From contig NZ_AYZR01000009.1 of NCBI RefSeq assembly GCF_001436555.1, forward strand, positions 1 through 64,000: DNA of 64,000 nt, given 5' to 3'. Position numbers and translations under genes: made by a program. How positions within the stretch are numbered: the stretch's first letter is position 1; each line of letters opens with the position of its first letter. The notes under the pieces were generated by a model that had not been told where the DNA came from, ran no database searches, and was given only the letters and a program-made list of their open reading frames with translations. This document shows, one piece after another, positions 15-25,834 of the stretch. This stretch comes from Lentilactobacillus senioris DSM 24302 = JCM 17472. Its GTDB lineage: Bacteria > Bacillota > Bacilli > Lactobacillales > Lactobacillaceae.

Positions 15-32
15 TTTGTTCAGTTTTCAAAG
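15..32 (-). promoter_or_regulatory. rRNA leader conserved box
   Basis: On the minus strand this reads CTTTGAAAACTGAACAAA, the conserved leader segment found ahead of 16S rRNA in Bacilli. It lies about 60 bases downstream of the rrn promoter, as expected for antitermination and processing signals. No mature rRNA sequence is in the window. Confidence 0.75.
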
Positions 33-23744: not shown

Positions 23745-25148
23745 TTATTCTTGAATCGATTTAGGACTAGCAGTTAATAATTTCATTCCAACCCAATAAA
23801 TCAGCGCCGTAATTGCCATCGCGATAAAAGTTGCTCCTACGGTATTAGCAATTAACGGAATTTGTTTTAATCCCCAGTAAACCAATACTCCCAGGATCCA
23901 ACTGGTAATCGCTGTCCAGTTTATTCCGTTTTGATACCAGTAAGAACCTTCAACCTTAGTTAGTTCATCCACTTGATAATTTTCATGTTTCAGCCAGAAA
24001 AAGTCTACTAAGAAAATTGCGATTTCAGGTCCTAAAAACATTCCAATGCCGTCTAAGAAAGTTTCAAATACTTCTAAGAAGCTTGCTAAGTACACCGGAA
24101 TAAAAGTTACTAACGTAGCCACAATCGTTACAATCCATAAGCTAGCGTTTAACGACAAGCGGTGCACAATGTTAGTTAGTGCCGAACCAGCCGACATCAA
24201 GTTAACTGCGTTAGCAGTAGTACTAGTCAAAACAATTACTAATAGTGCTAGAAAGCCAAGTCCCAATTTAGCCGCAACTGTACTAGGATCAGAGTTGTTA
24301 GGATCAAAATGGTTCAATGTAATAGCCGTCCCAATCGTAGCAAATAATCCAATGAATGCAAACCAGAACAAACCGATATTGGCTCCCAAAAACGAAGAAG
24401 TCGTCGCAGCCGACTTTTTAGCCGTAAACCTGCTAAAGTCAGAAGCCGCCGTTACCCAGGCTAAGTTAAAGGCCGCCAAAGTATCAGCCGCCACCCCTGA
24501 AGACATCCGTAAGTTGTGCGGTGGTCGCCAAGCAATAATTTCTTGTAAGGAAACCATTTTGAAAACTACTACTGATTCCCAGATTACAAAAATCACTACC
24601 AAAATAATTCCAATGCGTTCAATCATTTGAATCGATCGTTGCCCTAAAGAAATACTAATTAAATGCAGAACACTCATAATTAAAATTCCGACGATCAAGC
24701 CAAAGTTACCGCCCGGTTGTCCATACAATGGCCACCCAAACATAGTATTGAACAGATAGCTAATGGAAGTAGCCGCAATAAAAGTATTCACCGCTGCCCA
24801 GCCGATAAACTGAATCACGTTAATGGCGGACGGAATAAAACTGCCTCGTAACCCGAATGAGGCTCTGGTTAACGCCATCGCCGAAACTCCGGTTTTGTAT
24901 CCCATGTAGCCAGCTAATACCAATAATAGATAAGAAACTAACCCGACCACTAATAACGTGGTAGAAGCCGTTAAAAAACCACACGCGGCGATCACCCCAC
25001 CAATATACCAAGTACCGTTATTAGCGTTAGCTCCGATCCAAGTGGCGAATAAATCCCAGTTAGTCATTTTACGATTAACCAGCGGAACCGCTGTTACCTT
25101 ACCAAATTCTGATTGTGCTTTGGGTGCTACTTTAGTTTCTACTTTCAT
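23745..25148 (-). CDS. NCS1 family nucleobase:cation symporter
   Basis: The 467-residue protein has about twelve membrane segments. The first reads WDLFATWIGANANNGTWYIGG, the typical NCS1 start with the conserved N-x-x-x-W cluster, and the family is related to cytosine permease CodB and purine-cytosine permeases. It follows the deoxyribosyltransferase gene by 50 bases on the same strand, and both lie behind a PyrR-type attenuator. That context points to a pyrimidine base (cytosine or uracil) or a pyrimidine derivative as substrate; this is inference. A strong terminator follows. Confidence 0.87.
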   Translation of the reverse strand: MKVETKVAPKAQSEFGKVTAVPLVNRKMTNWDLFATWIGANANNGTWYIGGVIAACGFLTASTTLLVVGLVSYLLLVLAGYMGYKTGVSAMALTRASFGLRGSFIPSAINVIQFIGWAAVNTFIAATSISYLFNTMFGWPLYGQPGGNFGLIVGILIMSVLHLISISLGQRSIQMIERIGIILVVIFVIWESVVVFKMVSLQEIIAWRPPHNLRMSSGVAADTLAAFNLAWVTAASDFSRFTAKKSAATTSSFLGANIGLFWFAFIGLFATIGTAITLNHFDPNNSDPSTVAAKLGLGFLALLVIVLTSTTANAVNLMSAGSALTNIVHRLSLNASLWIVTIVATLVTFIPVYLASFLEVFETFLDGIGMFLGPEIAIFLVDFFWLKHENYQVDELTKVEGSYWYQNGINWTAITSWILGVLVYWGLKQIPLIANTVGATFIAMAITALIYWVGMKLLTASPKSIQE

Positions 25149-25639: not shown

Positions 25640-25682
25640 GGAAAAATTCCTCCGGTTAATAATTTTTCAACCCACTTCCCAT

Positions 25683-25720
25683 AAAAAAAGGCCGGACTCC
25701 GCAAGGAATCCAGTCGTTAG
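25683..25720 (-). terminator. attenuator terminator of the ntd leader
   Basis: On the minus strand GACTGGATTCC pairs with GGAGTCCGGCC (one mismatch, two G-U) and is followed by seven T, about 45 bases before the ntd start. It sits in the 5' leader rather than after a gene, so it must be conditionally read through. Confidence 0.85.
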
Positions 25721-25751
25721 GTGCACTACTGCTAGTGCTTTTTTATCGGAC

Positions 25752-25783
25752 CCTTACTAGCCTCACAGGACTAAGTTAAAAGG
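25752..25783 (-). promoter_or_regulatory. PyrR-binding anti-antiterminator
   Basis: The minus strand reads AGUCCUGUGAGGCU at 25772-25759, an exact match to the PyrR binding-loop consensus ARUCCNGNGAGGYU. It is flanked by arms that pair (CCUU... with ...AAGG) to form the bulged hairpin PyrR recognises. The 3' arm (AAGGGTCC) can also pair with the 5' side of the downstream terminator (GGATTCCTT), giving the competing antiterminator. PyrR with UMP would stabilise the terminator. Confidence 0.88.
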
Positions 25784-25805
25784 AAATATTTGGTTGTTGT
25801 TAGCT

Positions 25806-25834
25806 ATTATACGGATTCACCTAGTCATCGTCAA
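25806..25834 (-). promoter_or_regulatory. promoter of the ntd-NCS1 operon
   Basis: TTGACG (25829-25834), 17 bases, then a perfect TATAAT (25806-25811) on the minus strand. Transcription would start near 25799, just before the PyrR hairpin. Confidence 0.85.

Follow-up and report, generated by a model that had tools for sequence, protein, structure and literature searches.

A PyrR-type attenuator predicted to control a nucleoside deoxyribosyltransferase gene and an NCS1 permease gene in Lentilactobacillus senioris and related lactobacilli

The window denotes the whole stretch of DNA analysed here, i.e. positions 1-64,000 of contig NZ_AYZR01000009.1 of Lentilactobacillus senioris DSM 24302 = JCM 17472 (GCF_001436555.1). 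Between 25834 and 25683 its minus strand carries, in this order, a promoter, a PyrR-type hairpin, a middle hairpin and a terminator, followed by ntd, coding for a nucleoside 2-deoxyribosyltransferase, and by the gene of an NCS1-family permease (Table 1). With a gap of 50 nt the two genes are likely transcribed jointly in the window. An initial annotation had proposed a promoter, an exact PyrR-binding loop ARUCCNGNGAGGYU within a bulged hairpin, a competing pairing and a terminator with seven T, all ahead of ntd. These elements were recovered. The loop, AGTCCTGTGAGGCT as DNA and AGUCCUGUGAGGCU in the hairpin, occupies 25772-25759 and is an exact match to the consensus; it is the single match of the pattern ARTCCNGNGAGGYT in 64 kb, where 0.07 matches are expected by chance. 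The lower stem of the hairpin is CCUUU/AAGGG. In the predicted fold of an unfinished transcript, 25757-25747 pairs with 25712-25701, and this candidate antiterminator overlaps both the PyrR-type hairpin and the terminator. The intrinsic terminator lies between the PyrR-type hairpin and ntd in the window as well as in the alignment of relatives. The fold energy of the window leader is unremarkable (z -1.64; 14 of 200 shuffles were equally good).

Table 1. Features of the ntd leader and the genes behind it (window positions).
Feature	Position	Strand	Basis
Promoter, sigma-A type, TTGACG-17-TATAAT	25806..25834	-	11/12 consensus bases
Putative PyrR-binding hairpin (anti-antiterminator), bulged	25751..25783	-	RF00515 match, loop, fold
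Antiterminator 5' strand, predicted	25747..25757	-	overlaps 3' arm of the lower stem of the PyrR hairpin; fold before the terminator 3' arm
Middle hairpin	25723..25738	-	fold; sequence and length vary strongly among species
Antiterminator 3' strand, predicted	25701..25712	-	overlaps terminator 5' arm
Leader terminator	25683..25713	-	stem 25713-25692, CC, seven T at 25689-25683
ntd ribosome-binding site GGAGGA	25648..25653	-	direct sequence reading
ntd, nucleoside 2-deoxyribosyltransferase, 146 aa	25199..25639	-	PF05014, PDB sequence and fold matches
NCS1-family permease, 467 aa, 50 nt behind ntd	23745..25148	-	PF02133

Ntd matched PF05014 with 81.6 bits (gathering score 28.8); no NCBIfam model matched. 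By sequence the nearest solved chain was 6evs (E 4.6e-26), the nucleoside 2-deoxyribosyltransferase of Bacillus psychrosaccharolyticus; 1s2d and 1f8x were also found. An AlphaFold model of Ntd, built from 14 sequences, had a mean pLDDT of 75.5, with residues 79-84 and 142-146 below 50. Its best fold matches were again 6evs (TM 0.81), the closest relative by sequence and fold although only 37% identical in the fold alignment, and the purine deoxyribosyltransferase 1s2d (TM 0.80). Tyr5, Glu89 and Asn111-Leu112-Met113 line up with 1f8x and do not vary among 14 orthologues. The roles of the catalytic Glu, a nearby Tyr and the Asn-Leu-Met stretch are in part described in a report on the homologue CtNDT (PMC10913048), and the Bacillus enzyme is called type II in another paper (PMC6270756). 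The Pfam assignment, the PDB sequence match and the predicted fold thus support that the window enzyme is a nucleoside deoxyribosyltransferase. It is very improbable that Ntd is a nucleotide N-glycosidase of the MilB/BcmB or DNPH1 type. The fold superfamily is shared, and MilB and DNPH1 do appear lower in the fold search, yet the MilB-type CMP glycosidases reached a TM of only 0.63-0.66 at 21-22% identity, the top matches by sequence and fold are deoxyribosyltransferases, and Glu89 and Asn111-Leu112-Met113 coincide with the Glu and the NLM stretch of 1f8x.

The permease matched PF02133 with 164.9 bits (gathering score 23.5) and stayed below all five NCBIfam cut-offs listed, the best model being thia_cytX with 175 bits. 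The only solved relative found was the hydantoin permease Mhp1 (2jln, E 1.9e-5). Substrates of the NCS1 family include purines, hydantoins, allantoin and pyrimidines. A pyrimidine base is a plausible substrate here.

The Rfam model RF00515 aligned over its full length to 25787-25682 with 49.1 bits (E 4.9e-6 in a search of 301 bases). It falls 4.9 bits short of the gathering score of 54, a value set by curators that does not describe the RNA itself. Scanned at the gathering threshold, the whole window gave two Rfam matches, an L13 leader and a tRNA; the PyrR leader was not listed. The L13 ribosomal protein leader (RF00555, 60174-60229, minus strand) scored 54.1 bits at a gathering score of 44. 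The initial annotation had named a covariance score below threshold as a result that would speak against a PyrR element. Taken literally the score is of that kind. In our view it does not refute a PyrR element, given that the two other good sites in this genome reach only 50.0 and 49.8 bits and that 7 of 12 Levilactobacillus ntd leaders pass the cut-off. In the L. senioris genome (1.57 Mb, nine contigs) the best PyrR sites scored 50.0, 49.8 and 49.1 bits, and the next one 31.5. The site with 50.0 bits lies upstream of a uracil permease gene (PF00860 in two pieces), so the gathering cut-off misses the classic target of the family in this genome, too. The site with 49.8 bits lies upstream of an operon read from the sequence as a PhnD-type ABC transporter. 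The PyrR protein itself is encoded in this genome (245.8 bits, cut-off 138). Placement of the window element in the PyrR attenuator family is therefore supported by its orthologues and its anatomy rather than by its own score.

Two other leaders of the genome may be described here. Behind the 49.8-bit leader (G000:C8:100640-100773, L002) the operon (about 5505-10774 in L022) reads as a PhnD-like lipoprotein, PhnC, two PhnE-type permeases and a 5'-nucleotidase. A relative (G199) has a PyrR site before genes that are 90% (phnD) and 86% (phnC) identical to it. This suggests a nucleotide or nucleoside, and not a phosphonate, as substrate of this transporter. Ahead of pyrF-pyrE-pyrD (G000:C8:150695-150816; L009, L027) the PyrR match is weak (23.7 bits, E 0.345). 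Its loop GGUUCAGAGAAGCC is off consensus; the stem pairing is retained in the fold and a terminator-like hairpin follows.

Is the leader conserved ahead of ntd in other bacteria? When 14 aligned orthologues were used to scan genome contigs, 38 loci were obtained. They come from Lentilactobacillus senioris and many species of Levilactobacillus, together with four records named Lactiplantibacillus and three of Lactobacillus that lack a species name. In 27 of the loci the strict loop is contained in the 200 nt ahead of ntd, and six more were added when one or two changes were allowed. The loop, whose absence from ntd leaders of close relatives would have told against the initial annotation, was thus found in 33 of 38 loci. 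A chance match of the loop, considered as an explanation, is ruled out by this count together with the 0.07 matches expected. All 34 leader-bearing sequences have a promoter of the form TTGACN-16..18-TATAAT in the 300 nt preceding ntd. An NCS1 match behind ntd was present in exactly the 33 leader-bearing loci. Leader and NCS1 gene were both missing in five (L071, L072, L076, L081, L082), where an Rfam scan at E up to 1 yielded no PyrR match. Four of these are named Lactiplantibacillus; the fifth (L081), from an uncultured Lactobacillus, groups with L071 in the tree. The coincidence of leader and permease (33/33 versus 0/5) should not be counted as 38 independent observations: the five leaderless loci cluster together, and almost all of the 33 come from a single genus. 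Sixteen of the 33 leader-bearing loci have 21-47 nt between ntd and the NCS1 gene. In the other 17 (L062, L063, L066, L068, L069, L073, L074, L077-L079, L083-L088, L095) the two genes are 135-2098 nt apart, so that co-transcription is unsure there. The NCS1 match is in two pieces in L074 and 308 aa long in L087. In L058-L061 and L064 a scan at E up to 0.01 listed four leaders and not that of L064, which has two loop changes.

Among the matches listed from a draw of 251 family genomes (two genomes without match do not appear), an orthologue of at least 72% identity was present in 14. Eleven of those listed belong to the presumed Levilactobacillus group, two to the genus of the window (of 12 genomes, own included) and one to the Lactiplantibacillus group. 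The leader was found on 13 of these 14 closest orthologues, own included, the exception being L032. The second ntd of the L. senioris genome (46% identity) lacks a PyrR leader. A narrow loop pattern had no match within 330 nt upstream of 16 ntd genes that are less closely related (L042-L057); this pattern also missed the variant loop of L031 that was spotted by eye. The five leaderless copies, the second ntd and the 16 distant genes rule out that the leader is a general feature of ntd. PyrR sites beside other ntd genes were sought by comparing positions by eye among the matches listed; two cases were inspected. In these (L133, L134) ntd lies 7-9 kb off on the same strand, the PyrR site fronts a uracil-permease-like gene and unrelated genes are in between. 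In a tree of ntd (146 columns, long outgroup branches) two Lentilactobacillus, five Lactiplantibacillus-type and six Levilactobacillus copies form one set with support of 99/96. We read this as a probable transfer of ntd between genera, with leader and permease lost in one line.

The leader alignment comprised 34 sequences from close kin, 33 of them distinct. Over the distinct leaders 92.9% of the hairpin and terminator cells were paired, compared to 32-66% with slid partners; the two helices of the PyrR-type hairpin reached 99.4% and 99.5%. Only 2 of 25 pairs had compensatory changes, a number matched in 258 of 500 shuffles; 21 of the 500 attained the covariation score and 28 the percentage paired. 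Covariation is weak, and so the case for an attenuator is carried by conservation. In 28 of 34 leaders the middle hairpin folds with an energy of -3 kcal/mol or lower. A Levilactobacillus-type antiterminator was paired in 93.3% of cells versus 6-50% with slid partners; it had no compensatory change at all and its measures do not exceed those of shuffles. The eight pairs counted for it are absent from the predicted fold of the window leader, in which the register differs. In L093 the predicted fold of the unfinished transcript lacks all expected pairs of PyrR hairpin and antiterminator. Could the leader be a relic, or a plain terminator from another operon, that has lost its response to PyrR? 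Weak covariation and a score below the gathering cut-off would fit; however, the invariant loop bases, the promoter in 34 of 34 sequences, the paired stems in 33 distinct leaders and the link of the leader to the gene pair argue for selection, and the uracil permease site of the same genome scores alike. We consider a relic hardly to be expected.

Sites of RF00515 (E up to 0.01) were then collected from 12 genomes, assigned to Levilactobacillus on the basis of coordinates shared with named records, for example G084 with L059 (L. brevis ATCC 14869). Among 29 sites the first gene downstream was ntd in 12, a uracil permease in 11, pyrF in three and pyrR in one; the remaining two sites front an aspartate carbamoyltransferase-like gene, named by eye, and an unassigned gene (L123). 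As the other sites front uracil permease, pyrF and pyrR, RF00515 marks real pyrimidine genes here. Every one of the 12 genomes has ntd with a PyrR leader, and in nine of them the ntd site is the best-scoring PyrR site. At or above the Rfam cut-off were the ntd leaders of seven genomes. All 12 encode pyrR, and only four encode pyrF (one genome is just 72% complete). With 12 ntd and 11 uracil permease sites and pyrF in 4 of 12 genomes, PyrR appears to control mostly salvage genes in Levilactobacillus. Tentatively, and at slightly less than even odds, we extend this: in Levilactobacillus and kin PyrR may be chiefly a salvage regulator whose most constant target is the ntd-NCS1 pair, which would free uracil from deoxynucleosides and import a pyrimidine base.

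Taken together, the full-length RF00515 match, the genomic pyrR and the occurrence of the leader at 33 of 38 loci and in every one of the 12 Levilactobacillus genomes bear out the attenuator reading of the initial annotation. We assign a probability of roughly 85% to the proposal, drawn from the sequence, that a PyrR-type transcription attenuator controls ntd-NCS1 as a pyrimidine salvage operon under UMP. The analysis itself shows how the leader is built and that it is conserved, that pyrR is present, how the genes are ordered and to which family the enzyme belongs. Binding of PyrR and a response to UMP are what we infer; the tie of Ntd to UMP is made because of the established biology of PyrR. 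At ample UMP, nucleotide-bound PyrR would hold the anti-antiterminator hairpin (25783-25751). The terminator (25713-25692) would then form and transcription would stop ahead of ntd. At little UMP, PyrR would leave, and the 3' arm of its hairpin would pair with the 5' arm of the terminator, allowing readthrough. Ntd would strip the base from deoxyuridine (or deoxycytidine) via exchange with a purine base or by slow hydrolysis, the freed uracil would be converted to UMP by uracil phosphoribosyltransferase, and the NCS1 permease would import a nucleobase, most likely a pyrimidine. Cleavage of a deoxyuridine analogue is on record for this family: LdNDT, a type II enzyme from L. delbrueckii, hydrolyses deoxy-fluorouridine, and does so faster with an acceptor base (PMC7831932). 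In which direction Ntd works in vivo and what the permease carries are likewise inferences.

The pyrimidine genes of the L. senioris genome bear on this proposal. Genes read as carA, carB, pyrF, pyrE and pyrD are present, as is upp (303 bits); for pyrB and pyrC no match above the family cut-offs was found in this genome, i.e. the pathway is a half one. Therefore, the strain should depend on salvage, and obtaining uracil from deoxynucleosides under the control of UMP would then make sense. The PyrR-linked uracil permease (G000:C4:151847-153029; L021 6749-8030) is split into two overlapping frames, possibly an assembly error; that of a relative (G133) is a single open frame of 429 aa. Three other nucleobase-carrier genes of PF00860 have a single open frame each.

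A working attenuator is also compatible with the reverse use of Ntd, which at low UMP would make pyrimidine deoxynucleosides from imported bases and purine deoxynucleosides. PyrR responds to uridine nucleotides and not to dTTP. Spending scarce pyrimidine bases on deoxynucleosides at low UMP would be poor logic, and genomes without pyrF, or without pyrB and pyrC, should need uracil first. Therefore we hold this reversal to be clearly unlikely, even though the linked NCS1 gene could supply the bases and the reaction of the related CtNDT is given as fully reversible in the portion of the report cited above (PMC10913048). Less unlikely, if still doubtful, is that the permease imports a purine base as acceptor when Ntd strips pyrimidine deoxynucleosides. 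The PyrR-linked base carriers that we know of are uracil carriers only, and the three other single-frame PF00860 genes may serve purines. On the other side, purines are among the NCS1 substrates, as also the Pfam title has it, and the permease passes no NCBIfam substrate model; moreover, according to part of a study on LdNDT, the type II enzyme of L. delbrueckii, hydrolysis of deoxy-fluorouridine is faster with an acceptor base, by up to 30-fold (PMC7831932).

Is such a target of PyrR already on record? PyrR attenuation usually governs genes for pyr biosynthesis and uracil uptake, and we know of no NCS1 carrier as PyrR target. In a full-text literature search, judged mostly by titles and openings of abstracts, no report of PyrR control of ntd was found among the matches listed. 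RegPrecise is said to hold the regulon lists of a survey of 43 RNA families. As stated in part of that paper, the families, including PyrR, were scanned in 255 genomes, 15 of them from Lactobacillaceae (PMC3766115), and its supplementary regulon lists may already contain the L. brevis ntd site. The type of switch is thus familiar; what is new is its ntd-NCS1 target, for which priority is not claimed.

Nucleoside deoxyribosyltransferases are widely used biocatalysts, but what they do in the cell is, to our knowledge, not well defined. A PyrR switch on ntd, conserved across the sampled part of a genus, gives this subfamily a testable role, namely pyrimidine supply. Through a switch that serves lactic acid bacteria as a sensor of their UMP supply, the leader probably ties deoxynucleoside salvage to pyrimidine hunger; if a salvage role of PyrR in Levilactobacillus and kin is true, deoxynucleosides would be a source of UMP under regulation by UMP itself. 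From the side of regulation, the leader also hints at what an uncharacterised NCS1 permease carries, and PyrR is retained in genomes that lack pyrF.

How does the window compare with known systems? The permease shares its family, PF02133, with Mhp1 (2jln), CytX and CodB, from which it is set apart by scores below the NCBIfam cut-offs and by a weak match to Mhp1. The PyrR-controlled pyrP is a base carrier under the same switch, present in 11 of 12 Levilactobacillus genomes and in L. senioris; it belongs to PF00860, whereas the window permease belongs to PF02133. The closest counterparts of the leader are the pyr-operon attenuators (RF00515) of Bacillus subtilis, Lactococcus lactis and lactobacilli. 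They have the same loop in a bulged hairpin and a terminator with a T run, and pyrR likewise acts from elsewhere in the genome; an overlapping antiterminator is predicted in the window. The difference lies in what is governed: the pyr-operon attenuators front a pyr biosynthesis gene or a uracil permease, whereas the leader of the window fronts ntd and an NCS1 permease.
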